Made by a program: the position numbers and the translations under genes
Source: a virus
IMG/VR virus record: IMGVR_UViG_3300046787_000352
Span: 1-64,000 of that record
Length of the DNA: 64,000 bases
Strand: one strand, 5' to 3'
Notes under the pieces: generated by a model
The model's input: the letters and a program-made list of their open reading frames with translations, nothing else
What the model was told of the DNA's origin: nothing
The model's database searches: none
Shown: positions 11,610 through 28,799 of the stretch, piece after piece
How positions within the stretch are numbered: position 1 is the stretch's first letter
How the letters are laid out: each line of letters starts with the position of its first letter

Positions 11610-12023
11610 CTACAGAATTGGTTTCTTTGCTCTTGAAGGCCTTGTGCGCTTCTTCGAGGCGTTTGCCCTCCACTCGCGTAAAAGGCCAGTGCGCCGCGAA
11701 GGGATTCCCATCTCGGCAGCTATCGTGCTTATCATGCTGTCGCACAGTCCGAACTTGTTCGCTATGTACGAGTGTTTCTCGCCTTGCCTTAGTAGCGCGG
11801 CGATGTGTTGATTGCGCACGAAGCGAATCTTTTTCTTCTCGATTGCATCGGCGTGTGCCGGTATTACTTTCCTGACTGACTTCCATATACCCTCGTCTAC
11901 TTCATAGGTTGCGAACTTGTGGTCACACACGGCGCACTTTCGTGTCCTGCGTGTAACGGTATCAGCGTGTAGGGGGCGTGTCTCCAATACGGATGCCTCA
12001 CCCCCACATTTAACGCACTTCAT
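11610..12023 (-). CDS. Zinc-ribbon/HTH protein, NrdR-like N-terminus (137 aa)
   Basis: N-terminal zinc ribbon with C3-x2-C6 and C30-x2-C33 (MKCVKCGGEASVLETR ... RKCAVCDHKFATYE), close to the ribbon of the NrdR repressor. A helix-turn-helix-like part follows (HSYIANKFGLCDSMISTIAA), then a basic tail. The NrdR ATP-cone is absent, so this is a phage-type regulator rather than true NrdR. It may bind promoters. Confidence 0.75.
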   Translation of the reverse strand: MKCVKCGGEASVLETRPLHADTVTRRTRKCAVCDHKFATYEVDEGIWKSVRKVIPAHADAIEKKKIRFVRNQHIAALLRQGEKHSYIANKFGLCDSMISTIAAEMGIPSRRTGLLREWRANASKKRTRPSRAKKPIL

Positions 12024-16845: not shown

Positions 16846-17113
16846 TTGGATTCTCCTGTGCATAGCGCTGTTCACACAACGCCAGTAGTGATTCGCCTAC
16901 GGCTTCTTTGTCCTTGGGGTGCACGTACCATGCACGCACGTTCCACCATTCTGTATTGGCGCCTCGGTTGGAGTACACATACACGTCGAACAAACTGGTG
17001 TTGATGTTGAACTCATACTCAACTGTGAAGGGAGGGCGCGACCATGACTCACCATCAGCGCTACCATCGGCAGACAGGTCGTCCCACTCCCACTCGATAA
17101 GCACCTCGCTCAT
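16838..17113 (-). CDS. Hypothetical protein, LCxxRY paralogue 4 (91 aa)
   Basis: Starts at ATG 17113, overlapping the stop of the VWA gene (ATGA). Shared end: GESLLALCEQRYAQENPNG; front has FTVEYEFNINTSLFDVYVYS. Translated with the VWA gene, so it might modulate that machine. Function unknown. Confidence 0.65.
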   Translation of the reverse strand: MSEVLIEWEWDDLSADGSADGESWSRPPFTVEYEFNINTSLFDVYVYSNRGANTEWWNVRAWYVHPKDKEAVGESLLALCEQRYAQENPNG

Positions 17114-18357
17114 GGCTTGATGCGCACAACCTTGCCCGTGTGCGGTACGAAGTCATCGTTATCTACAACGCCGAACAACACGGGGAGCTTGGGCACCTCA
17201 TAGTCGCTCTCGATGTAGCCGTCAGTCAGATAGATCACGCACTTAGGTGTGAGCTTCTTCTTGGCAATGTACTTAGCAACACACGACACGGTGGTGCCGC
17301 CGCCACCCTTGGGTGACATGAGCGTAGCGATCTGGTCGTACTGGTCAGGCTTGAACTCCTGATCGCCGCACACGGATGTGTCCCACCACAACACACGCAC
17401 ACCCTCGGGACGCACACTGCTACAGATACGTGCGATCTCACCGAAGATGGTCGAGTAGTACGGGTGCATAGAGCCTGACGTGTCACACGCAATCACGATC
17501 TCACCGATCGTCTCAGTGAAGTGCGAAGGCATGATGAAGCCTGACGCAAGCAAGCGTTTGTTGGGAGGGCAGAAGCGCGACTGCTCGTCACCTTGGCACA
17601 CACTCGACAAGAAGTCACGCAGCGCATCCTGCCAGTTAGTCGCACGCTCAGCGGCCAGCTCGAAGATGTCACGACCACCAGCACCATTGCCGCGTAGCTT
17701 CTGTGCAAGCAGGGCACCTTGATGGTTGGCATCGTCAATGTCCTTAGAGAGTTTGTTGATCTCTTGCTCGGTCATCTCCTTGTCGTCATCCTCAGCATCG
17801 CCGTGCATGTGCTCGTCGAGACACTTGCCTAGCATCTCCTCCAATGCCTTCTGCATAGCGTCAGCATCTTTCTTCATCTGCTCAGGGTCTTGGCCGTTGG
17901 CCTTCATGTCGTCAACCAAAGACTTGAGCACCTGCGGAAAGGACATGCCCTTGTACTTGGGGTCAACCAATGGGGGCACAGCAGTAGGACGGTCAACAAA
18001 GTTGAGCGCAGGGTCAAGCTCCTCGATCAAGCCGTTCACCACGTAGTCCATAGCCACGTTACACAGTGGGCCACCGAAGCGATCTTCTAGTGGGCGGTAT
18101 GCGATGCAGTGCTTGAGTGCAACGTGGAAGTTCTCATGCAACACGAGGTAGCGCAGTTGCTTGCGCGTCATGTCCTTGATGAAGTCAGCACCGTAGTACT
18201 TGTTCTTGCCGTCAGTGCCAGCAGTAGGCAGGTCATCCTTAACGTCAGACTTACCCATACAGATGATGCCAGACAGTAGTGCGAAATCTTTGTTACGCAT
18301 ACAGTCGATGTTGACCGCCTCGACGCGGCGGTGTAGTGTCATTTTCTCGAAGCTCAT
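17110..18357 (-). CDS. Metallopeptidase-like / von Willebrand A protein
   Basis: 415 aa in two parts. The N-terminal domain has LVLHENFHVALKH (H74, E75, H78) and CNVAMDYVVN (D104), as in the putative metallopeptidase (DUF2201-like) domains fused to VWA. An acidic linker (about 185-215) follows. The C-terminal VWA domain has a complete MIDAS: D292-T-S294-G-S296, T355/T356 and D379 in YLTDG. It lies directly downstream of the MoxR-type ATPase, as in bacterial MoxR/VWA pairs (e.g. RavA-ViaA, CobS-CobT), which remodel or insert metal into target proteins. ATG 18357 with GGAGAAAC upstream. Confidence 0.85.
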   Translation of the reverse strand: MSFEKMTLHRRVEAVNIDCMRNKDFALLSGIICMGKSDVKDDLPTAGTDGKNKYYGADFIKDMTRKQLRYLVLHENFHVALKHCIAYRPLEDRFGGPLCNVAMDYVVNGLIEELDPALNFVDRPTAVPPLVDPKYKGMSFPQVLKSLVDDMKANGQDPEQMKKDADAMQKALEEMLGKCLDEHMHGDAEDDDKEMTEQEINKLSKDIDDANHQGALLAQKLRGNGAGGRDIFELAAERATNWQDALRDFLSSVCQGDEQSRFCPPNKRLLASGFIMPSHFTETIGEIVIACDTSGSMHPYYSTIFGEIARICSSVRPEGVRVLWWDTSVCGDQEFKPDQYDQIATLMSPKGGGGTTVSCVAKYIAKKKLTPKCVIYLTDGYIESDYEVPKLPVLFGVVDNDDFVPHTGKVVRIKP

Positions 18358-18373
18358 TTTGTTTCTCCTAGAT

Positions 18374-18387
18374 GGGGCCGAAGCCCC
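18374..18387 (-). terminator. GGGGC-TTCG-GCCCC stem-loop between ATPase and VWA genes
   Basis: Same 14-base hairpin as at 1263 and 35445, in the 35-nt gap between the MoxR and VWA genes. No T-run follows. It could reduce read-through or protect the upstream mRNA so that ATPase is made in excess of VWA. Confidence 0.5.
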
Positions 18388-18392
18388 GTTGA

Positions 18393-19517
18393 TTACTTAG
18401 TGTTGAACAGGTCACGATGCGCGGCCAGCATCTTGGCAAACTCGCTCAGTGTCACGAACAGAGACAAGCGTTGGCTGTTGGCCAACGTATTGCAGAACAG
18501 TGACTGCATCTCGGTACGCATACGCAACACGTACTTGACCACAGCCTCGGCCTCGGCACGATTCTCCACACGTGTGATGAACTGATACACCTGCAACAAC
18601 TGCGCCGTAGGGTTGTCAGACAGCGCCGCCTTATCAGGTGCGGCAACCACTGACTCGAACGATGCAATGTCACGACCGAAGCGAATGAACGCACCCATGG
18701 CCTCGGCTGTCGCCTCGCCTACTGCACCGACCAACGCTGTCTCCATCGTGTCGTCGTCAACGATACCGTCACAGGCAGTGATGATGTCAGACGCTGCGTG
18801 CAATGAGCGAGGTGATGCGTATGCCAGTTGCATAGAGCGAGGGTTGAAGATGTAGCCGTTGTCCTTGTCTTGCTTCTTACCCTCGTGCTTGCCGCCCTTC
18901 TCGTAGTCGAGGAAAGAATCCATGACGTTGCTATGTTGTGACACGAAGGTGATGACCTTCTCGTTGAGGCCACGGTCGATCGCCCAGCTAATCCACTCGT
19001 CAGCCGAAGGCTTACGCATCTTGACGAACACCAGACGGTTACGCAAGTGAGCCTGAATCGAATCGCCTAGACCCTCGGTGCTCAGGTTGGTAGCGCAGAA
19101 CACAACGCTACCCTCGGGCAGATGGTAGTTACCAACGCGACGCTCATAGATGATCGGAGCCAGCACGTTCTTGATGAACTGCGGAGCCTTAGCGATCTCG
19201 TCCAAGAAGATCAACACAGGCTTGGCACCATTGACACCTAGCTGATTGGTCTTGGTCACACCGAAGCGCTCGTTAGGCAACTCACGTGACACACCGTTCT
19301 CACGATCGAGGTCGGGCATCCACACGCTACCGTCAGACAGTTGGGTACAGTCGATTGGGTCAACGGCAATGTGATTGGCAAACTGTGGCATCTTCTTGAT
19401 GGCATGGAACAGGCCAGTCTTACCGATACCGTTTTCGCCCTCGACTATTACTGTGCGCTTGTCACCGATAGCGGCCACGAGGTTAGACACTTGAGAGAAT
19501 GAGAGAAAGTTACGCAT
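18393..19517 (-). CDS. MoxR-type AAA+ ATPase (374 aa)
   Basis: Walker A GENGIGKT (27-34), Walker B VLIFLDE (101-107), sensor 1 in FCATN (N144) and arginine fingers in AHLRNRLVF (R159, R161), plus the MoxR-style loop between Walker B and sensor 1. MoxR ATPases act with VWA proteins as chaperones or metal-insertase motors. Promoter at 19577-19606 and a hairpin leader are directly upstream, so it is the first gene of its own unit. ATG 19517 with AGGAAATC upstream. The ATPase assignment is firm; the substrate is unknown. Confidence 0.9.
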   Translation of the reverse strand: MRNFLSFSQVSNLVAAIGDKRTVIVEGENGIGKTGLFHAIKKMPQFANHIAVDPIDCTQLSDGSVWMPDLDRENGVSRELPNERFGVTKTNQLGVNGAKPVLIFLDEIAKAPQFIKNVLAPIIYERRVGNYHLPEGSVVFCATNLSTEGLGDSIQAHLRNRLVFVKMRKPSADEWISWAIDRGLNEKVITFVSQHSNVMDSFLDYEKGGKHEGKKQDKDNGYIFNPRSMQLAYASPRSLHAASDIITACDGIVDDDTMETALVGAVGEATAEAMGAFIRFGRDIASFESVVAAPDKAALSDNPTAQLLQVYQFITRVENRAEAEAVVKYVLRMRTEMQSLFCNTLANSQRLSLFVTLSEFAKMLAAHRDLFNTK

Positions 19518-20640: not shown

Positions 20641-21003
20641 TTAAAAAGTTGTGTGCAGTTGGTGCGTTGCATGAATCATGTCGTACAACTCGTCTGCGTC
20701 ATTGCCGCCTGCTCTGTATTCTTCGGCTCCGTCTTCACCTATTGCTAGGAAACGGAAGCTGGCCTCGAATACTTCCTCGGCTTCGGACATGAGTTTGTAG
20801 TGCGAAGCTACATCGGGGTAGCTCTCATACCACTTCACATCGTCGATCTTGAACACGATGTACTTGTCTTCGTGGTCTCGTGTCTCGTTGATTGCCTGTG
20901 TCATCCACGCATCGTTCTTGTGCAGCACTACATCTCTGAATGTTGCACGCTCGTTTGCGTCTTTGAATTGAATGGCGTATGCCACGTCACTGCGGTAGCC
21001 CAT
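20641..21003 (-). CDS. MGYRSDV-type conserved phage protein (120 aa)
   Basis: Begins MGYRSDVAYAIQF, a start shared by many phage orphan proteins (recalled). Acidic, with Trp/Tyr-rich beta part DVKWYESYPDV. ATG 21003 with GGAGAAAAC upstream. Unknown function. Confidence 0.75.
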   Translation of the reverse strand: MGYRSDVAYAIQFKDANERATFRDVVLHKNDAWMTQAINETRDHEDKYIVFKIDDVKWYESYPDVASHYKLMSEAEEVFEASFRFLAIGEDGAEEYRAGGNDADELYDMIHATHQLHTTF

Positions 21004-21262
21004 CGGTTTTCTCCTTGGTTAGTTTGTTGATAAGTCTGCGCATACCGAACTGCTGATACACGATGTTCGATTTGGTTGCGGGTTTCTTCGGGTCTGCGAG
21101 TAGCAACCACATACCACTGCTAGGCCATGCTTCGTAGCGCAACCCGTTGTGGTCTATGCGAATGTGCTGACCGTTGTTGAACACCTCGTGGTCAATGCCA
21201 GCGATGGTGAGTAGTGTTGGGGTGCATTGCACCCACCAGTCTTTGGTTTCTTTTGCGTCCAT
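20987..21262 (-). CDS. Hypothetical protein (91 aa)
   Basis: Starts at ATG 21262, only 7 nt after the 19-bp palindrome at 21270-21288, with no clear Shine-Dalgarno sequence, so the palindrome lies in its translation-initiation region. The product has a small beta part (HIRIDHNGLRYEAWPS) and a basic C-terminal helix. Overlaps the next gene by 17 nt. Confidence 0.65.
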   Translation of the reverse strand: MDAKETKDWWVQCTPTLLTIAGIDHEVFNNGQHIRIDHNGLRYEAWPSSGMWLLLADPKKPATKSNIVYQQFGMRRLINKLTKEKTDGLPQ

Positions 21263-21269
21263 GTTTTGC

Positions 21270-21288
21270 GTGGGACACCGTGTCCCAC
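21270..21288. repeat. 19-bp palindrome GTGGGACA-N3-TGTCCCAC, copy 1
   Basis: Perfect 8-bp arms with a CCG spacer. It lies between the 21310 gene stop and the 21262 start, at the ribosome-binding position of the latter. See the five other copies at 23752, 24251, 25334, 25775 and 26101. Confidence 0.9.
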
Positions 21289-21309
21289 AGAAAGATGTTG
21301 ATAGTGAAG

Positions 21310-21969
21310 TCAGAGGGTGCGCCCATCCTCGTCAAACTCCCACTCGTTGTGCTCACACGCGTCAGCGATCTGCTCAGGCGAACACAACCACTCGTACTCC
21401 TCCTCTAGTTGCTTGTAACAGCGACGTGCATACTCACCCGCCTCGGTCTGCATCCACTCATGCAGTGAGCTGAGCAACCCATCTATGTCGATCTCACGCC
21501 CGATGTTCTCGACGTTCACACCTTTGAACATGCCGTGTGTTAGTACGTCAGGCTCGTCTACTGCGCGGTACGTGTAGTCCTCGGGTTCCTCTACCGTAGT
21601 GACATGGCCACGGTATTGGCGATTGCTCACGCTCACCCTATGCTGTACCCAGTCGTCGTCGATCAGGTCACGCAGTATTAGGTAGCGTGCATAGTCGGTG
21701 TGCTCAGGTGTGAGGTGTGCGTCAAGAAAGTCAGCGATACGTATTGACCCATTCCATGAGGCGTAGTCACCCTGTGAGTAGAAGCCTGAGAAATTTATCT
21801 CGTCAACGTCGAACCCTTTCTCTGGCCCCTGTGACTTTAGGTCGTCGATCGTGAACTCCCACCAGTCGTAGCCCATGCAGTCGTCGCAGTACCACTGGTG
21901 CACTCGCTCCTTGGCCTTCTCACTCAGCTCGTTGTACTTGTAAACAAGTTTCTCTATTACTCGTGGCAT
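21310..21969 (-). CDS. Hypothetical acidic phage protein (219 aa)
   Basis: ATG 21969 with GGAGGATTG upstream, better than the extension to 21996. Contains INFSGFYSQGDYASWNG, a segment I recall in a widespread phage family whose function is not known. Very acidic, rich in Tyr/Trp. Several coupled small genes precede it. Confidence 0.75.
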   Translation of the reverse strand: MPRVIEKLVYKYNELSEKAKERVHQWYCDDCMGYDWWEFTIDDLKSQGPEKGFDVDEINFSGFYSQGDYASWNGSIRIADFLDAHLTPEHTDYARYLILRDLIDDDWVQHRVSVSNRQYRGHVTTVEEPEDYTYRAVDEPDVLTHGMFKGVNVENIGREIDIDGLLSSLHEWMQTEAGEYARRCYKQLEEEYEWLCSPEQIADACEHNEWEFDEDGRTL

Positions 21970-21970
21970 A

Positions 21971-22033
21971 TCAATCCTCCAAAAATAAAAAGTCAATCAA
22001 TCGGCAAACCAAAACAAATGTGATGACGGTCAT
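21971..22033 (-). CDS. Possible 20-aa hydrophobic micro-protein
   Basis: AAGGAG lies 6-7 nt before ATG 22033, and the stop TGA (21973-21971) sits in the ribosome site of the 219-aa gene. The peptide MTVITFVLVCRLIDFLFLED is almost entirely hydrophobic. It could be a tiny membrane peptide or just a coupling leader. Too short to judge by sequence alone. Confidence 0.35.
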   Translation of the reverse strand: MTVITFVLVCRLIDFLFLED

Positions 22034-22285
22034 TCATATCTCCTTGTTGTGCCAAGGTGGTGCCATCATCATGTACCCATGGTCAGGGTATCGCTCACAC
22101 AAAATCTTGCGGAGGTCGTTGTACTTCTGCATCACCTCGGTGTACTTGAGGTGAAGCTCCCACACCTGTTCAGGTGTCGCATCGGGGTGGCGCATTAGCT
22201 TGAGCACACTAATGCCAATCCCCTTGTGGTGTGCAACGAATTGCACCCACATCGTTCGCAGCTCTTTGCTTGGTAGCTTACTCAT
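22034..22285 (-). CDS. Hypothetical protein (83 aa)
   Basis: Helical and basic N-terminal half, with VWELHLKYTEVMQKYNDLRK and a Met-rich end. ATG 22285 overlaps the stop of the 51-aa gene, so initiation is probably by coupling. No family. Confidence 0.65.
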   Translation of the reverse strand: MSKLPSKELRTMWVQFVAHHKGIGISVLKLMRHPDATPEQVWELHLKYTEVMQKYNDLRKILCERYPDHGYMMMAPPWHNKEI

Positions 22286-22433
22286 AGTGGCGTAGCGTTA
22301 TCTTGTGCGCCCACTCACGGCCATGGTCATAGGCCCGCATCAAGCCCCAGTCTGCGTACCACGTGGTGTAGTGCGAACGGAACTCCCACACCCCATTGAT
22401 GAAGGCGCGTAGTTTGTAAAGTTTGTATGTCAT
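22278..22433 (-). CDS. Hypothetical protein (51 aa)
   Basis: Starts at ATG 22433 (ATGA overlap with the upstream stop) and ends overlapping the next gene. Aromatic and Arg-rich: YKLYKLRAFINGVWEFRSHY. GAGAGAG lies just upstream of the ATG. A compact small protein of unknown role. Confidence 0.7.
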   Translation of the reverse strand: MTYKLYKLRAFINGVWEFRSHYTTWYADWGLMRAYDHGREWAHKITLRHYE

Positions 22434-22813
22434 TGCTCTCTCTCCTTAAATTGTTTTGCTAGGTTATCTAGCTCGTTGATTACGAAGTCGAGGGACTTCC
22501 ATGTTGCATCGGCGAACGGGTCGTTATCCAATTCGTCGTAGTACACCTTGCTGTTAGGGCGCACGTCCATGTAGTGCGAACAGTCGAAGCCGAAGCACCA
22601 CACACCGTCACTCTCTGGGTCTGCATACGTCAGCCCACCATGCACATCTACCACGGCATCGTCATAATGTGCGCCGAAGTCAGGGTGTGTGCTTGGTAGG
22701 TAGATGTACCCGCACCACGAATCCATCACGGTGCGCCGTCTTGCAAGGCACACGAACCCGTGCGACTCAAACAAATGTTCGAGGGGTTCGCTTAGCCAAG
22801 GTTCGTTATTCAT
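22430..22813 (-). CDS. Hypothetical phage protein with VHGGLTYA motif (127 aa)
   Basis: Has DVHGGLTYADPESDGVWCFG, then FDCSHYMD, a pattern I recall in many phage and prophage orphan proteins. N-terminal HLFESHGFVCLARR relates it to the 24008 and 23730 proteins. ATG 22813. Function unknown. Confidence 0.75.
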   Translation of the reverse strand: MNNEPWLSEPLEHLFESHGFVCLARRRTVMDSWCGYIYLPSTHPDFGAHYDDAVVDVHGGLTYADPESDGVWCFGFDCSHYMDVRPNSKVYYDELDNDPFADATWKSLDFVINELDNLAKQFKEREQ

Positions 22814-23087
22814 CTACTTTCCTTTCTCTCGACACAAGGTCGAGTATGTCCATGCCTGATCGCATGTCAGGTATATGTTGGTCGTTGATACGGTCGCCAC
22901 GCAACACAGTTAAGAAGTAATAGCGCCTGTCTCCACTGCTTGACCAGCGCTGCTCAACGTACCCGAGAGATTCGTTCTGCCTAGTTAAATCAAGCAAGTG
23001 CAGACGCAATGTCTTCACCTCGAACAAACCCTCTGGGTTCTTGGCGCTACTTAATATGGCGGGGGACAGCATCCATTCGTACTCCAT
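22806..23087 (-). CDS. Hypothetical protein (93 aa)
   Basis: ATG 23087 (TGATG with the upstream stop) is preferred over the longer frame. Mixed alpha/beta, with a short beta hairpin SSSGDRRYYFLTVLRGD. No family recognised. Confidence 0.65.
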   Translation of the reverse strand: MEYEWMLSPAILSSAKNPEGLFEVKTLRLHLLDLTRQNESLGYVEQRWSSSGDRRYYFLTVLRGDRINDQHIPDMRSGMDILDLVSRERKVDE

Positions 23088-23512
23088 CACCGCACCCAAT
23101 ATGTGTAGGCACCCCACTCCACGGCGGTGTAGTCAGCCTTGAGGTTGTCGGCTGTCGCCTCCCAGTCAATCACGACATAGGTTGGCATGTTGCGTGGTAT
23201 AGCGCCCAAGTCATCGGTCAGTTGCTCGGCATACTCCGTCCAGTGCTCGTCCAGAATCAACTGCACCCCATGGTGCCAGTCGGAGCAGTATTGCTCGGCC
23301 TCGTTACAGAATTCTTCGAGCGCCTTGTACTCCTCGCCATGCTCGTCGTCCCATGCGTCGAGGTTTTCTTGCGCCGCCTCCTTGTCGTCCTCGGTATCGG
23401 CTTCGTCCACAGCATCGACTAGCGCCGCCCTGTCTGTGGCCATTTCAGTTAGTAGCTCGGCCAGCTCGCGGCTGTCGATGGTGTCGTCACCGTTGTAGTT
23501 TGTGTAACTCAT
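23087..23512 (-). CDS. Hypothetical very acidic protein (141 aa)
   Basis: ATG 23512 with GAGGAGAG upstream. N-terminal 80 residues are rich in Asp/Glu and probably helical; the C-terminus has PTYVVIDWEATADNLKADYT, then GAYTYWVR. Similar C-termini occur in phage orphans, some annotated as anti-restriction proteins; I do not claim that here, although an acidic DNA-mimic would fit the charge. Confidence 0.65.
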   Translation of the reverse strand: MSYTNYNGDDTIDSRELAELLTEMATDRAALVDAVDEADTEDDKEAAQENLDAWDDEHGEEYKALEEFCNEAEQYCSDWHHGVQLILDEHWTEYAEQLTDDLGAIPRNMPTYVVIDWEATADNLKADYTAVEWGAYTYWVR

Positions 23513-23706
23513 GCTGTCTCTCCTCGTGATTGAATGTTTGCTTTGATTAGTACGCCCTGTGCGTACAGGTTGCACGCCTTCTCGAACTCAGGCGTATTGG
23601 GGTTCATGAGCGGCATCGCGGCGGCTAGTAGCTCCATGATGCCCTCGGCTTGGCGCAGTGCCTTGGCACGTTGCTCTGGTGTCTTGATCTGGTTTCTCAT
23701 TGTCAT
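23509..23706 (-). CDS. Hypothetical helical protein (65 aa)
   Basis: ATG 23706 with AGGAGAAAC upstream and the hairpin at 23726 just before it. Sequence is helical throughout (AKALRQAEGIMELLAAAMPL). Unknown function; the leader hairpin suggests controlled translation. Confidence 0.7.
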   Translation of the reverse strand: MTMRNQIKTPEQRAKALRQAEGIMELLAAAMPLMNPNTPEFEKACNLYAQGVLIKANIQSRGETA

Positions 23707-23725
23707 GGTTTCTCCTAAACAAGTT

Positions 23726-23744
23726 GCTACTAGACCGTAGTAGC
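23726..23744 (-). promoter_or_regulatory. Leader hairpin of the 65-aa gene, homologous to 19548-19566
   Basis: On the transcript: GCTACTA-CGGTC-TAGTAGC with CACCGTG immediately 5'. Relative to the MoxR leader, two stem pairs change (C-G to U-A, and G-C to A-U) with pairing kept, while the loop CGGT and the upstream CACCGTG are conserved. It contains the stop codon of the 23730 gene. Confidence 0.55.
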
Positions 23745-24011
23745 CACGGTGGTGGGACAGGGTGTCCCACGGGGTTCTTTCTCGGCATGGCGCACCTCTA
23801 CTTTGGCATAGCGCACGGCGTCCTCGGGTGTGTTGTGTATTCGTGCCATCTTGAGTACCTCGCCATCGGGCCAGTAAATCACTGTGCCCCATGCTCTTTC
23901 TTCCTCTGCGGCTTCGGGGCCTGAGTACCACGGGTAGCGATACACCAGTTGGCACACCACACCACGGTACTCAAACAGGTCGCCCGTGTAGCTGTCTTCG
24001 TCGTGTGTCAT
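23730..24011 (-). CDS. Hypothetical protein, LFExxGxVC family (93 aa)
   Basis: ATG 24011 (ATGA overlap with the upstream stop). Contains DLFEYRGVVCQL and, after a variable part with WY-x-G, NTPEDAVRYAKVEVRHAEK, matching the 24008 protein. The C-terminus (RGTPCPTTVATTV) is encoded by the 19-bp palindrome and the hairpin, so the repeat has become coding sequence. Confidence 0.7.
   Translation of the reverse strand: MTHDEDSYTGDLFEYRGVVCQLVYRYPWYSGPEAAEEERAWGTVIYWPDGEVLKMARIHNTPEDAVRYAKVEVRHAEKEPRGTPCPTTVATTV
23752..23770. repeat. 19-bp palindrome, copy 2
   Basis: GTGGGACA-GGG-TGTCCCAC, perfect arms, in the last codons of the 23730 gene, where it encodes GTPCPT. Confidence 0.9.
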
Positions 24012-24235
24012 CTGTACGCCCCATTCTTTTCTTGGTTGACCATGACCCGCGCCATCTTTATTGCGTCTTCTGGCTTGGTGTACCAGTTCGACTGGTTGTG
24101 GGTGCCGTCCTTGCGATACATCAAGCCCTGATACCACGGCGGTTGGTTAGCACTGGTCTGCGCGGTGCGCAAGGCACACACATAGCCGCTATGCTCGAAC
24201 AGTTCCATCTCGTCTGAATTGAACCTAATACTCAT
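24008..24235 (-). CDS. Hypothetical protein, LFExxGxVC family (75 aa)
   Basis: ATG 24235 with AAGGAGAAGC upstream. Sequence ELFEHSGYVCALRTA, a W-Y-x-G middle, then TKPEDAIKMARVMVNQEKN, aligning with the adjacent 23730 protein. Probably a tandem duplication. Palindrome copy 3 lies just before its ribosome site. Confidence 0.75.
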   Translation of the reverse strand: MSIRFNSDEMELFEHSGYVCALRTAQTSANQPPWYQGLMYRKDGTHNQSNWYTKPEDAIKMARVMVNQEKNGAYR

Positions 24236-24250
24236 TGCTTCTCCTTGTTG

Positions 24251-24269
24251 GTGGGACAGGTTGTCCCAC
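24251..24269. repeat. 19-bp palindrome, copy 3
   Basis: GTGGGACA-GGT-TGTCCCAC between the stop of the 24274 gene and the ribosome binding site of the 24008 gene. Confidence 0.9.
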
Positions 24270-24273
24270 GGGT

Positions 24274-24927
24274 TTAATCCCACAGCTTCGGCACTCTCAG
24301 CTTCCACTGCATCTCTGTGGAGATTGCTCTCCACCGTTCGCCCACGCCAAACCGTTCGTTGGCCTCGACGTAATCTTGCCACCGTGCGCTAGGCGCTCGG
24401 CGTTGTTCTTTCAGGCGCTCCAGTTTTGAGTGGGCGCGGATGGATTCGAGCATCTCTAGGTAGTATTCGAGATGGTCTTTGGTGTTTGGGCACTGGTTGT
24501 ACGCCGCGCGTTGGTTGTGCTTACGTAGCTGGTCTTTCACGGCGGCGATCTCTTTGCCTAGCGGCTCAAGCATTACGTCCCACGACTCACGATATATCTG
24601 GCCCCACCGCTTCGTGATTGCGTCACGCCCTTTGTTTGCTCGGCTTGCTTCGCGCTTCTCGATTTCTCTATCAACAATGTATTGAGAGAGTTCGCCCGAT
24701 TTGACCTTGGCCAGTAGCTCGTCGCGGCGTAGCTTGTCGATGGGCTTTTTCTTGGGCTGACATGATTTGCATCGGCTTGATTCGTACTCAAGGGTGACAG
24801 CTCCCGCGAACCCCCAAGCCTTCGACTGCGCCTTGGTGGCTTTGGCTTTGAATTCAGCGAGGGGTTTGATCGCTTTGCATACGGTGCACATGGCCGCCGC
24901 AGGCAGTGATTCCACGTCAATAGTCAT
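24274..24927 (-). CDS. Zinc-binding hypothetical protein (217 aa)
   Basis: Two Cys pairs, C14-x2-C17 and C53-x2-C56 (CTVCKAIKPLAEF ... RCKSC), form a zinc site like that of zinc-ribbon or HNH-associated phage proteins. The rest is a basic, helical, Arg/Lys/Glu-rich region. It may bind nucleic acid. ATG 24927 with AAGGAGTAAG upstream; it lies directly downstream of the origin-like region. Confidence 0.7.
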   Translation of the reverse strand: MTIDVESLPAAAMCTVCKAIKPLAEFKAKATKAQSKAWGFAGAVTLEYESSRCKSCQPKKKPIDKLRRDELLAKVKSGELSQYIVDREIEKREASRANKGRDAITKRWGQIYRESWDVMLEPLGKEIAAVKDQLRKHNQRAAYNQCPNTKDHLEYYLEMLESIRAHSKLERLKEQRRAPSARWQDYVEANERFGVGERWRAISTEMQWKLRVPKLWD

Positions 24928-25175
24928 ACTTACTCCTTACGTTTTGCCGTGGGATACCCACTAGGCAAGTTGCAGATACCCACTAAAGCCATGGTGGTGG
25001 ACAGTATGGTGGGTGATATTTTGAGCCCCGAGTATACATCGTTTTAGGGGGGGTGTACCCACAAGACCTATCTCGTAGCAAGAACGCTATCGCCAAAAAG
25101 GGTAAAAACCTATTTGTATTAACGCCTAACCACACCCACGTGACCCACTTTATATATATATCTTAATAAATCTAT
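24928..25175. other. Origin-like intergenic region
   Basis: 248 bp without a supportable gene. It holds a 13-bp palindrome GTGGGATACCCAC (24949-24961), one arm of a 27-bp inverted repeat (24976-25002), several GTGGG/CCCAC words, a -10-like GTATACT on the minus strand (near 25030) and one flank of an AT-rich cruciform (25144-25199). Density of palindromes and AT-rich tract suggests a replication origin or a complex regulatory site. Confidence 0.5.
24976..25002 (+). repeat. Left arm of 27-bp inverted repeat
   Basis: Matches the reverse complement of 25254-25280 at 25 of 27 positions. Each arm can also fold on itself (CCACTA with TAGTGG, or with TGGTGG allowing G-U). Confidence 0.8.
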
Positions 25176-25199
25176 TTATATATATATAGGTGTAGTGGG
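25144..25199. repeat. AT-rich cruciform-like palindrome
   Basis: CCCACT (25144-25149) pairs with AGTGGG (25194-25199), and inside these TATATATATA (25151-25160) pairs with TATATATATATA (25177-25188). The loop is AT-rich. It overlaps the last codons of a small gene. Easily melted DNA of this sort is typical of origins. Confidence 0.7.
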
Positions 25200-25313
25200 T
25201 GCTGGGTGTGGGTTCGCTAATATCCATGCGGGTTTGAGGGTGGCCCACCCCTTGTCCACTACTATGGCTTTAGTGGGTATTTCGCCTGTTTCAGGTGGGT
25301 ATGCCTTACCCAT
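25176..25313 (-). CDS. Possible 45-aa protein, perhaps a remnant
   Basis: ATG 25313 has GGAGAAGTC upstream. The product (MGKAYPPETGEIPTKAIVV onward, ending APTTPIYI) has no recognised motif and stops inside the AT-rich palindrome. It could be a real small gene, or the 5' end of a gene broken by the repeat region. Confidence 0.45.
   Translation of the reverse strand: MGKAYPPETGEIPTKAIVVDKGWATLKPAWILANPHPAPTTPIYI
25254..25280 (-). repeat. Right arm of 27-bp inverted repeat
   Basis: Inverted partner of 24976-25002 (25/27). The arms are about 250 bp apart and bracket the AT-rich cruciform. This arm lies within the 45-aa reading frame. Confidence 0.8.
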
Positions 25314-25461
25314 GACTTCTCCAAAACAAGTTGGTGGGACATGGTGTCCCACGGCGTCGATGGTCTGCGATAGCGAGGAGGCGGTGCTCCTCACGCAAGG
25401 CGCGCAAGCGCTCACGATACCAAGCCACATAGACGGGCAGTGTGAGGGGTAGTTGTTTCAT
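25306..25461 (-). CDS. Hypothetical basic protein (51 aa)
   Basis: ATG 25461 overlaps the upstream stop (ATGA). The first 37 residues are an Arg/Leu-rich helix (VYVAWYRERLRALREEHRLL). The C-terminal stretch RGTPCPTNLFWRSHG comes from palindrome copy 4 and its flank, so the natural end of the protein may once have been different. Confidence 0.6.
   Translation of the reverse strand: MKQLPLTLPVYVAWYRERLRALREEHRLLAIADHRRRGTPCPTNLFWRSHG
25334..25352. repeat. 19-bp palindrome, copy 4
   Basis: GTGGGACA-TGG-TGTCCCAC within the 3' end of the 25306 gene and upstream of the 25313 start. Shares its flank (AACTTGTTTTGGAGAAG on the minus strand) with copy 3 and with a half-copy at about 25660-25680. Confidence 0.9.
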
Positions 25462-25652
25462 AGTGCCCCCATCGTGCCGCTGTGGCGGTAGTGTGTGAAG
25501 CCTTGCACCAGCGCCCATGCCTTGGCCATCTTGTACAGCGTGTCGTATTCGTGGCCCTCGAATGTTTTGATTAGCTTGTTGCGGTAGAACAGGTCGAAGG
25601 CGTAGCCTGACGAACCCCATGGGTGATACGTGCTGAGCGTGACGGTTTTCAT
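25458..25652 (-). CDS. Hypothetical protein (64 aa)
   Basis: ATG 25652 with GGAGAAGCC upstream. Begins MKTVTLSTYHPWGSSGYAF and has YDTLYKMAKAWALVQGF. No family recognised. About 120 bp of apparently non-coding DNA, with a degenerate palindrome flank, precede it. Confidence 0.65.
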   Translation of the reverse strand: MKTVTLSTYHPWGSSGYAFDLFYRNKLIKTFEGHEYDTLYKMAKAWALVQGFTHYRHSGTMGAL

Positions 25653-25774
25653 GCTGGCTTCTCCAAAATAGGTTTGTGGGAATAAATGCGCAACGAAGCG
25701 CGGTGGACACGGAATGGAACAGCAGTCAGGCGAGGCGCTCCCGCCCTTCTGCGTAGGTTTTGTAAAACACGTTG

Positions 25775-25793
25775 GTGGGACACGGTGTCCCAC
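25775..25793. repeat. 19-bp palindrome, copy 5
   Basis: GTGGGACA-CGG-TGTCCCAC, 3 nt after the stop of the 25797 gene. Confidence 0.9.
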
Positions 25794-25796
25794 GCA

Positions 25797-26222
25797 TTAC
25801 GCATTGAGTGCTTTGAAGACAGCGGCGGCACGTTTCTTGTCGCCACCACAAGCGGCCAAGAAGGCTTTGAAGGCTTCGCGCTCGGCGGCAGTCACGCGCA
25901 TCTTGGTTGGCTCGGCGCGTGCTCGCTCGGTGGACTTGAAATGCACCATGACGTTGCGCTCCCAAGACTTACGGGCCGAGTCGTTGCGGGTGTCGCGGGT
26001 TGATTCGTCGCCGTCATAGAACACGGCAGAGCCTGCGGCGTTCCATGTGTAGTTGCACTGGTACTTCTTGGCGTGTACCTTGGCCAGTGCCTCTAGTAGC
26101 GTGGGACATGGTGTCCCACCGAGCGCGGCGGCGGCTTGGCTTAGTGCGTCACCGTATGACATGCCAGCCTGCAAGAAGGCTTCGTACTTGGCGGCGATAG
26201 ATTGAATGTTGATTGAAGTCAT
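25797..26222 (-). CDS. Hypothetical first gene of the leftward arm (141 aa)
   Basis: First leftward gene; ATG 26222 with GGAAATATC upstream. A helical, Ala/Lys/Arg-rich protein; residues 35-41 (GGTPCPT) are encoded by an in-frame palindrome (copy 6) between two helices. Its position next to the divergent control region suggests very early expression, for example host take-over. Function unknown. Confidence 0.7.
   Translation of the reverse strand: MTSINIQSIAAKYEAFLQAGMSYGDALSQAAAALGGTPCPTLLEALAKVHAKKYQCNYTWNAAGSAVFYDGDESTRDTRNDSARKSWERNVMVHFKSTERARAEPTKMRVTAAEREAFKAFLAACGGDKKRAAAVFKALNA
26101..26119. repeat. 19-bp palindrome, copy 6 (inside a gene)
   Basis: GTGGGACA-TGG-TGTCCCAC in frame within the 25797 gene; it encodes GTPCPT. 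Confidence 0.9.
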
Positions 26223-26538: not shown

Positions 26539-27261
26539 ATGGGTTTTACCCCAGAGGAGAAGCAATGCAGGCAACTGCTTGCCGCACTACCGGAAATGAG
26601 TGTACACTCCGCGCATCGAGGTGACAACAGGAGCCTTCGCTTGTTTGAAGATTTGGTGCAATTTAATCCGGAACCCACACCGTCTGGAAACTTCAAGCCC
26701 ATCGACGAGATGGGGCCAGCTACCGTGCTTGACGCACAGGTGGCTACAGCTGATTGGCTGGAAGAGATCGGCGCGCCTCCCGATGAGGACGCCCACGCAG
26801 AGGCAACGCAAAAGTTGGCCCGGGCTGCGTTCACCGCCATGATTACTGACTCGGACGAGGGCACACAGCGCAAAGCGCTCACCACCCTGAAGACACCCGA
26901 GGCGGTAAGACACATCACCGGCATGCTGGCAGCCTACGACTGGGAATTTGTCGAGCAGGCCAAAGAGCTCCGCGGCTACGCCGTGGCGCAAATCTTCGAA
27001 GAGACCAAACACCCCGACGCCAAGATTCGACTCAAAGCACTTGAGATGCTGGGCAAGGTCACGGAAGTGGCGCTGTTCACGGAACGCGTTGAGGTCAAGA
27101 AGGCTGAGATGAGCGACCACGAGCTCGAGGCCAAGATCAAAGAGAAGCTGAACAAGTTCATGAAGGTCGTGGACGTGGTCGATGTAAGGGACGTGTCAGA
27201 AGACACCCCGGCCGAAGACCCCACCCCCGCACTCCCCAAACCAGAAACGGACGACGAGTGA
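26539..27261 (+). CDS. Terminase small subunit (putative, 240 aa)
   Basis: Assigned mainly by position directly before the large subunit and by its helical build with an acidic C-terminus. Start is uncertain: ATG 26539 lies in the terminator stem; ATG 26596 is an alternative. A better ribosome site (GAGGAGAAGC) serves an out-of-frame 19-codon reading frame from 26565. It would recognise phage DNA for packaging. The stop overlaps the next gene by 4 nt. Confidence 0.65.
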   Translation: MGFTPEEKQCRQLLAALPEMSVHSAHRGDNRSLRLFEDLVQFNPEPTPSGNFKPIDEMGPATVLDAQVATADWLEEIGAPPDEDAHAEATQKLARAAFTAMITDSDEGTQRKALTTLKTPEAVRHITGMLAAYDWEFVEQAKELRGYAVAQIFEETKHPDAKIRLKALEMLGKVTEVALFTERVEVKKAEMSDHELEAKIKEKLNKFMKVVDVVDVRDVSEDTPAEDPTPALPKPETDDE

Positions 27262-28799
27262 ACCTTGACGCCCTGACCACGCTTAGTAAGGAGGAGCTAT
27301 TGGCTCTCCAAAAGGCGTTGCCGACAATGTCGCTCCAAGACAAGATGGAGCTGTTCGACATGTTGGAGGTGCGCGAGAAGCGCGCCAGCCTGGCGGCCGC
27401 CCAAGGGAACATGCTCGGGTTCGCCAACGCCGTCTACCCAGGATTCAAGGTCGGGCCGCACCACAGGAAGCTGGCCAAGATTTTCCAAGACGTGATCGAC
27501 GGCAAGAAGAAGCGCGTCATCATCAACATCGCGCCGCGTATGGGCAAGTCTGAGTTTAGCTCCTACCTGTTCCCAGCGTACTTCCTAGGTAATAACCCTA
27601 ACAAGAAGATCATCATGGGCACGCACACGGCGGGCCTGTCCGAAGACTTCGGTCGACGGATTCGAAACCTGCTCGACTCGGAGGAGTACCGTGAAGTTTT
27701 CCCCAACACGCAGGTGGCGGCCGACCAGAAGGCTGCTGGTAAATGGTCTACAAGCGCTGGCGGTCAGTACTATGCTGCTGGTGTCGGCGGTGCTCTTGCT
27801 GGTCGTGGTGCTGACTTGTTCGTTATTGATGACCCGCACTCGGAACAGGATGTAAAGACAAACTCGCGCCTGGCGTTCGACACGGCGTGGTCGTGGTTCC
27901 AGACTGGCCCCTTGCAGCGTTTGATGCCGGGCGGCGCGATCATAGTCATCATGACGCGGTGGAGTCTGCTGGACCTGACCGGCCGGCTGATCGACTACCA
28001 GATGAAGAACCCGAACGCGATTCCATGGGAGATCGTGGAGCTGCCAGCCATTCTGAACGAGGACACCGAGAACGAGAAATCACTCTGGCCGGAGCAGTGG
28101 CCACTGGCGTCCTTGAAGTCGACGAAGGCTTCGCTGGACCCACAGTATTGGAACGCGCAGTACATGCAGCAGCCCACATCGGACTCAGCTGCCATCGTGT
28201 CGAGAAAGAGCTGGCGCATTTGGGAGAGCGACGAGCCGCCCAAGTGTGAGTACGTCATCCAGAGCTGGGACACGGCCTTTGAAGCCAAGACCCGGTCGGA
28301 CTATTCTGCGTGCACCACGTGGGGCGTCTTCTATAACGAGGAAGAGAATCACACACCGCAGGTCATCTTGCTGGACGCGTTCAAGGACCGCATGGAGTTT
28401 CCTGAGCTCAAGGCCGTGGCGCTGAAACACTACCGCGAGTGGGAGCCAGATGCGTTCGTGGTTGAAAAGAAAGCCGCCGGCGCGCCCCTCATCCAAGAGC
28501 TCAAGAACATGGGCATCTTCGTCCAAGAATTTACACCGAGCCGCGGAAACGATAAGATCGTGCGTATGAACGCAGTGGCTGACTTGTTCTACTCAGGTAA
28601 AGTCTGGGCACCCGACACGCGCTGGGCGCGCGAAGTGATCGAAGAAGTTGCGTCGTTTCCGAACGGCGAGCACGACGACTACGTGGACACGACATCCCAA
28701 GCATTGCTGCGTTTCAGGCAAGGTGGTTTCATTCCGTTGGACTCCGACGAGCGTGACGAACCGACATTCTTCAAACGCAAAACTCACGCGTACTACTAG
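27258..28799 (+). CDS. Terminase large subunit
   Basis: 513 aa, GTG start in GTGA overlapping the previous stop. ATPase: Walker A-like PRMGKSE (93-99) and Walker B LFVIDDPH (187-194). Nuclease: SWDTAF (D338), VVEKKAAG (E403) and EHDDYVD (D473/D474), the three acidic positions of the RNase H-like terminase nuclease. It pumps and cuts DNA during packaging at the portal. Confidence 0.95.
   Translation: MNLDALTTLSKEELLALQKALPTMSLQDKMELFDMLEVREKRASLAAAQGNMLGFANAVYPGFKVGPHHRKLAKIFQDVIDGKKKRVIINIAPRMGKSEFSSYLFPAYFLGNNPNKKIIMGTHTAGLSEDFGRRIRNLLDSEEYREVFPNTQVAADQKAAGKWSTSAGGQYYAAGVGGALAGRGADLFVIDDPHSEQDVKTNSRLAFDTAWSWFQTGPLQRLMPGGAIIVIMTRWSLLDLTGRLIDYQMKNPNAIPWEIVELPAILNEDTENEKSLWPEQWPLASLKSTKASLDPQYWNAQYMQQPTSDSAAIVSRKSWRIWESDEPPKCEYVIQSWDTAFEAKTRSDYSACTTWGVFYNEEENHTPQVILLDAFKDRMEFPELKAVALKHYREWEPDAFVVEKKAAGAPLIQELKNMGIFVQEFTPSRGNDKIVRMNAVADLFYSGKVWAPDTRWAREVIEEVASFPNGEHDDYVDTTSQALLRFRQGGFIPLDSDERDEPTFFKRKTHAYY

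Follow-up and report, generated by a model that had tools for sequence, protein, structure and literature searches.

Phage-specific palindromes of an early gene region covary with the early protein F0, a candidate DNA-binding regulator

Six palindromic sites and the genes around them

We analysed a 64,000-nucleotide stretch of DNA from an uncultured bacterial virus (positions 1 to 64,000 of IMG/VR record IMGVR_UViG_3300046787_000352, nearly the whole of this 66,049-base record; hereafter the window), in which a palindrome, GTGGGACA-N3-TGTCCCAC, recurs near an early gene, F0, whose product we propose to read it. Six exact copies with perfect 8-bp arms were found, all of them in the early region and all where an earlier, sequence-only reading of the window had placed them. 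There was no seventh copy in the window even at three mismatches, and the full record contained none outside 21,270-26,119, while three-mismatch matches in 100 dinucleotide shuffles averaged 0.46 and never reached six. The genes around the six sites are all on the minus strand (leftward), pointing away from the terminase genes at 26539-28799, and the F0 gene adjoins the divergent terminase small-subunit gene. The sites and the two early genes discussed below are as follows.

21270..21288, unstranded: palindromic site copy 1, 7 bp before the ATG of gene 20987-21262
23752..23770, unstranded: palindromic site copy 2, in the last part of an open reading frame (ORF) stopping at 23730 and 45 bp before the ATG at 23706
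24251..24269, unstranded: palindromic site copy 3, 4 bp past the stop of gene 24274-24927 and 15 bp before the ATG at 24235
24274..24927, minus strand: F1, a CxxC zinc-ribbon protein, always after a structured leader
25334..25352, unstranded: palindromic site copy 4, upstream of a structured noncoding region and gene F1
25775..25793, unstranded: palindromic site copy 5, 3 bp past the stop of the F0 gene
25797..26222, minus strand: F0, first of the leftward early genes, with a 141-aa product proposed to bind DNA and read the palindromes
26101..26119, unstranded: palindromic site copy 6, within the F0 gene at codons 35-41, which read Gly-Gly-Thr-Pro-Cys-Pro-Thr

The sequence-only reading had also reported an in-frame peptide, Gly-Thr-Pro-Cys-Pro-Thr, in three proteins. 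In the form Gly-Thr-x-Cys-Pro-Thr this is correct: copy 6 encodes it in gene 25797-26222, and it is also encoded in two small ORFs, stopping at 23730 and at 25306, in both of which the palindrome sits near the C-terminus. Since other frames through the palindrome are open as well, the peptide is a by-product of the frame. Copies 3 and 5 stand just after stop codons and copy 1 before its ATG. Two details fared less well. The extended flank described for copies 3 to 5 holds for GTTG directly before the palindrome, the remainder being loose similarity only, and the 3-nt centre is not freely variable, since the coding strand reads CCN in four of the six copies.

The same positions were examined in relatives, which are given L numbers where they need to be told apart. 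Copy 1 has the same site and the same flank in L069/L148, and the position homologous to copy 2 is occupied in L148. The site after gene 24274-24927 recurs in most relatives, a site also recurs in relatives at the position of copy 4 ahead of the F1 leader of about 390 nt, and directly after the F0 stop codon relatives have a site, each with its own palindrome. The in-frame site of copy 6 persists at 50-60% protein identity with all 16 arm bases retained, and its counterpart in other phage types is located about 15-25 bp upstream of the F0 start.

Palindromes of related phages and their covariation with F0

When we scanned viral contigs for the window motif, 69 stretches were obtained, mostly with clusters of 2-6 copies, and about 40 of them encode relatives of the window terminase large subunit, TerL (up to 98% identity) or of other window proteins. 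We also picked relatives by TerL alone and then searched them for any inverted repeat recurring within the contig. This analysis revealed a palindrome of its own in each relative, usually in 3-9 copies, in about 50 related contigs, whereas shuffled sequence gave at most one recurrence in 20 trials. The palindrome sequence varies by phage while its build is constant. It is GTGGAACA-N3-TGTTCCAC in L051, GTGGCACA-N3 in L102 and GTGAGACA-N3 in L129, and further types are GGGGACA-N3, CGGGACA-N3, TGGGACA-N2 (L018, L072), TGGTCA-N2 (L073), TGGACA-N2 (L082), GTTGCAC-N1 (L053), GCGGACA-N3 (L114, L127), GCAGACA-N3 (L085, L107), GCTGACA-N3 (L109), and AGAGAGA-N2, which was found after the F0 and F1 stop codons in L039, L105, L132, L142 and others. 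The spacer between the arms ranges from 1 to 5 across phages and is nearly constant inside one phage.

Changes of the palindrome affect both arms and many sites together. The five sites matched between L073 and L082 have similar flanks, and in each of them both arms show the same T to A replacement. Of the five sites matched between L051 and L062, four show G to A in both arms, the last one being unchanged. Different codes also occur within one sample, namely GTGGGACA-N3 and TGGGACA-N2 in 3300033076, GTGGGACA and CGGGACA in 3300046318, and AGAGAGA and GGCACA in 3300043395. Immediately past the AGAGAGA site that follows F0, nine relatives (L086, L097, L099, L105, L112, L113, L132, L136 and L142) have a second conserved hairpin, which looks like a terminator or attenuator; one example is ACAGCGGGC-GAGGCTG-GCCCGCTGT with TTTC behind it.

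The phages whose palindrome type was assigned have 224 sites, of which 162 lie between genes, even though noncoding sequence makes up 23% of the region. Among intergenic sites with an upstream gene, 66% lie no more than 15 nt past its stop codon, compared with 13% of random intergenic points, and where a gene follows downstream, 37% of sites end at a distance of 10-35 nt from its start, compared with 14% of random points, the positions relative to starts being approximate because gene starts were called by a simple script. In near-complete relatives every site is in the early region and the late half has none. We found no DNA-level relative of the early region among public phages, no recurrent palindrome in the parts read of HTVC027P, HTVC023P, 023Pt_psg01 and DSL-LC04, and no description of such palindromes for this phage group in open-access papers.

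The C-terminal third of F0 is common to many relatives, and the N-terminal part splits into several types. When we compared distances over 67 non-redundant phages, palindrome distance correlated with F0 N-terminal distance (Mantel r 0.46, P 0.0002; 0.48 partial on TerL), while it was correlated neither with TerL (r -0.07, P 0.81) nor with TerS (0.06, P 0.14). The C-terminal part of F0 adds nothing once the N-terminal part is given (0.02). The zinc-ribbon protein F1, which the sequence-only reading had offered as a possible binder, was rejected as reader, since its correlation of 0.15 drops to 0.025 once F0 is allowed for. Furthermore, four pairs of phages with near-identical TerL (L129/L132, L085/L088, L075/L080 and L116/L120) differ in both the F0 N-terminal part and the palindrome. 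A protein and its operators that form a matched module behave in this way, with codes that cut across phage phylogeny.

We then collected F0 proteins of the window type by profile search and compared their residues with the bases of the half-site, counting distinct proteins. Two codons stand out.

25968..25970, minus strand: Lys85 codon of F0, covarying with half-site base 5 (GTGGxACA), top column of the whole protein
25971..25973, minus strand: Arg84 codon of F0, covarying with half-site base 4 (GTGxGACA), with two exceptions

Residue 85, in the segment SARKSWERN, is Lys, Gln or Arg in 29 of 29 distinct proteins with a G half-site (GTGGGACA or GTGAGAC). Where A or C takes the place of this G, the residue is Met, in 10 of 10 distinct proteins. 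It is the best-scoring of all F0 columns; residue 40 comes second, and must change with the site because it lies in the codons of the in-gene site. On a tree calculated with residue 85 masked, the Lys/Met state changes seven times, at least five of these changes being forced by supported branches. The change from GTGGGACA to GTGAGACA concerns the neighbouring base. Leaving aside the codons of the in-gene site, Arg84 (replaced by Thr or Gln, with the two exceptions) and Asp81 are among the columns that follow it best, and the structural model places Asp81, Arg84 and residue 85 in one predicted helix. Neighbouring residues of one helix matching neighbouring bases are the pattern of a recognition helix, and we infer from this covariation that the helix may contact DNA.

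The AlphaFold2 model of the window F0 (predicted local distance difference test, pLDDT, 83) consists of three helices, a beta hairpin, a helix of residues 81-90 that contains residues 84 and 85, and two further helices (HHH-EE-H-HH), and the model of the L127 F0, which is of the GCGGACA type, has the same element order (pLDDT 74). In profile comparisons the window F0 type matched the CGGGACA/GGGGACA types over its full length (96%, E 4e-9) and the AGAGAGA type (97%), and the GCGGACA type weakly (14%, E 0.002). Sequence and profile searches found no Pfam, PHROG or PDB relative of F0 and no recognisable helix-turn-helix (HTH) family match; a single weak Pfam match, to the BEN domain, appeared in one of 47 F0 members (E 0.0025). 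Based on the covariation, F0 is best explained as a new family of sequence-specific DNA-binding regulator.

Proposed function and its alternatives

Taken together, we consider it fairly probable that F0 reads the palindromes as a matched code, with F0 acting probably as an autoregulated repressor at stoperator-like operators. According to this model, F0, the product of the first leftward early gene, would recognise a palindrome made of two half-sites, probably by direct binding as a homodimer in which the helix including residues 81-90 reads each half. Sites before or inside its own gene would allow autoregulation, and occupied sites at early gene ends would probably stop or lower transcription through the early operons, like the stoperators of mycobacteriophage L5 (PMC6550527, PMC9283540), so that repression would act at the elongation step and shut off the early genes. 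Specificity would differ between phages because the F0 N-terminal domain and all sites change together, giving matched code groups. A reading of the sites as promoter operators was rejected, as -10/-35 hexamers showed no enrichment around 177 non-redundant sites, the search covering E. coli-type hexamers only. Without recurring promoter hexamers near the sites, action after initiation is favoured, and since the sites lie at the F0 gene and after early stops, an autoregulated repressor is favoured as well. The suggestion in the sequence-only reading that the palindromes form a set of operator sites is well supported, by the F0-palindrome covariation and by the half-site logic described below.

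Several observations weigh against this interpretation. L057 has an AGAGAGA-type F0 but three GTGGGACA sites, and L097, L040 and L101 also break the match between F0 and palindrome. A GGAACA site occurs once in L046 and a GGGACA site once in L051, each being the code of the other phage, and a single orphan GTGGGACA site is present in L039 and in L040. These exceptions fit recent recombination of cassettes carrying their own site, yet they weaken a strict one-to-one rule. The palindrome types were assigned partly by hand, and a few of them, such as AGAGAGA, rest on contigs showing one or two sites. Three Foldseek searches on two AlphaFold2 models gave no significant structural relative of F0, the matches, which included MarR/IscR winged helices, all being below significance. 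Finally, the permutations behind the Mantel P values correct only partly for relatedness among F0 sequences; here the main safeguards are the TerL and TerS controls and the repeated switches at residue 85.

Even if F0 reads the sites, it might do so as an activator or antiterminator, as a genome organiser or partitioner, or in marking DNA for replication or packaging. The sites alone do not give the sign of regulation, no promoter association was found, and the palindrome of the cultured phage Pag-Yong1 (16 copies, see below) is present between late genes too. However, the restriction of the sites to early operons in near-complete relatives is ill-suited to packaging or genome-wide organisation, and a site in or before the gene of the reader is the usual sign of autorepression, so that we regard a non-repressor role as rather unlikely. 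The palindromes could also act in transcripts, as stem-loops for an RNA-binding protein or with an effect on translation, as a variant of the sequence-only reading held. Every copy is transcribed and would fold as an 8-bp stem with a 3-nt loop, and the 37% of intergenic sites that end 10-35 nt before a downstream start codon might suit such a role. On the other hand, many sites are distant from any start codon, spacers differ from 1 to 5 between phages while staying nearly constant within a phage, and an RNA stem would not require identical arms across all sites of a phage. In L165, a phage with Met85, four of the five sites are made of unequal halves, GGAACA on one side and GGCACA on the other, which breaks the RNA stem by a mismatch, but each half fits the A-or-C DNA motif of Met85. 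Based on these observations, we consider RNA hairpins improbable as the basis of the sites.

The sequence-only reading had also proposed a mobile or spreading palindromic element, similar to REP or Rickettsia palindromic elements, that inserts in and between genes. Identical repeated palindromes, some of them in reading frames, and the few orphan GTGGGACA sites in phages of other types (L039, L040, L057) would be in line with such an element. However, close relatives share the same junctions with conserved flanks, an observation that the sequence-only reading itself had named as one speaking against mobility, and in more distant relatives the corresponding junction is not empty but holds another palindrome. 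Moreover, F0 homologues without the in-gene palindrome (e.g. L115, L195) have the same length there to within a residue, and the in-gene site is the product of substitutions in a loop that was already present, nothing having been inserted. Gene cassettes that carry their own site account better for the orphan sites, and a mobile element was rejected as the main explanation, being very improbable. We hold it to be just as improbable that the palindromes are recombination linkers, conserved boundary sequences promoting exchange of early gene cassettes. The sites do lie at gene boundaries and the early regions are mosaic, but similarity between phages ends at 38% of sites, compared with 44% of site-free stops, 50% of site-free starts and 23% of random points. 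Since sites do not exceed site-free gene ends in this respect, they are not special for recombination, and linkers would not require a sequence that varies by phage and follows one protein. The linker explanation, with breakpoints not concentrated at sites, was therefore not supported.

Neighbouring features, known systems and phage lifestyle

Several other features of the window were noted. Between copy 4 and gene 24274-24927, positions 24970-25286 (minus strand) are noncoding and closed by a 28-nt inverted repeat (24976-25003/25253-25280), and the RNA fold of this region reaches -123.5 kcal/mol (z -7.7, with none of 100 shuffles as good). The approximately 375 nt before the F1 gene fold in 26 of 26 relatives tested, with a median z of -6.8 compared with -0.7 for a coding control. 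A 6-sequence alignment of the leader gave 59 consensus pairs, 91% of cells paired and 17 double-change pairs, structure and count being taken from the same alignment, and Rfam contained no match. The F1 leader is a candidate for a new large structured phage RNA, or for an origin. F1 itself occurs in 50 of 83 contigs, more than any other early gene of the group, and is weakly like HNH endonucleases (phrog_2340, E 0.011). Elsewhere on the minus strand, 17110-19517 encodes a MoxR-like ATPase (phrog_1297) adjoining a DUF2201/VWA putative metallopeptidase, a pair kept in relatives, and 11610-12023 encodes a protein with an NrdR-like zinc-ribbon N-terminus (PF22811, E 9.7e-11).

The phage group looks virulent, because the tyrosine integrase profile PF00589, the only integrase or parABS marker sought genome-wide, had no match in the 66-kb record, none of 84,980 cellular species genomes contained an F0 relative in prophage or host, and TerL relatives in these genomes reached at most 54% identity, the nearest being on contigs of metagenome bins. 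A cultured distant relative is Planktothrix phage Pag-Yong1 (OL906435, L155; TerL identity 47%). It carries 16 copies of a GGTTCA-N3-TGAACC-type palindrome, mostly GGTTCAG-N-CTGAACC, at positions 1474-30260 of the 31 kb read, mostly directly between genes (after stops, before starts), and this in late operons as well as in early ones. UMO76074.1, the first protein encoded leftward in this phage, has a C-terminus that matches the profile of the F0 C-terminal part (89%, E 2e-6). The records of MinM2 and Pra-JY27 have the same 65,014 bases and TerL match as Pag-Yong1 and may be the same genome.

It has been known that in Cluster A mycobacteriophages such as L5 and Bxb1 an immunity repressor binds dispersed stoperators, which are 13-bp asymmetric sites oriented with transcription; the repressor occupies them as a monomer and has a second domain in addition to its HTH (PMC6550527, PMC9283540). 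These phages are temperate, with an integrase or parABS, and specificity in the L5 clade tracks whole-genome distance (PMC6550527, PMC9283540). The present sites resemble stoperators in that many dispersed sites, mostly off promoters and in short intergenic spaces, go with a phage-encoded protein, in that the site consensus is phage-specific and follows the repressor (here F0 as the candidate), and in having an autoregulatory site at the repressor gene. They differ in being palindromic instead of asymmetric and oriented, in the absence from F0 of a recognisable HTH and stoperator domain (no Pfam, PHROG, PDB-sequence or significant Foldseek match), in the virulent look of the phages, and in a specificity uncoupled from phylogeny.

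Palindromic operators with a matched phage-specific protein, swapped between otherwise similar phages, are also the hallmark shared with lambdoid CI/Cro. Lambda operators are imperfect and clustered at two promoters inside the immunity region, whereas the near-perfect copies described here are spread along some 5-8 kb at the ends of genes, and F0 shows no recognisable repressor fold of a known kind. The PeSL cassettes of T4-type phages contain early promoters between stem-loops and are not known to be matched to a phage-specific protein. They are alike in placing stem-loop-forming sequences between early genes of virulent phages, where these travel with cassettes, and unlike in that our sites show no promoter enrichment and match a phage-specific protein. 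REP/REPIN and Rickettsia palindromic elements, which are inserted mobile elements, are likewise repeated palindromes in intergenic or in-frame positions, but the sites here are not insertions and follow a regulator.

Matched repressor-operator codes are a textbook mark of temperate phages, and given the virulent look of the group, immunity-like specificity groups are unexpected. The code pattern was found in abundant environmental phages with no integrase match or prophage kin, and in an unrecognised protein family. We tentatively suggest, as a possibility that we hold with some doubt, that these virulent phages possess a superinfection immunity in which a resident F0, from a family not described before, silences an incoming phage of the same code, and that competition diversifies the codes. 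If this is true, sister phages with almost identical virion genes would fall into different code groups. Natural covariation makes the specificity residue visible, Lys85 going with G and Met85 with A or C, and Pag-Yong1 offers a natural organism for experiments. The finding would provide an orphan early gene, which the relatives examined all have, with names and a class of function. It also opens a route to testing how a code can switch although the protein and five or more sites have to change together, and whether transcriptional silencing is a means by which virulent phages exclude one another.

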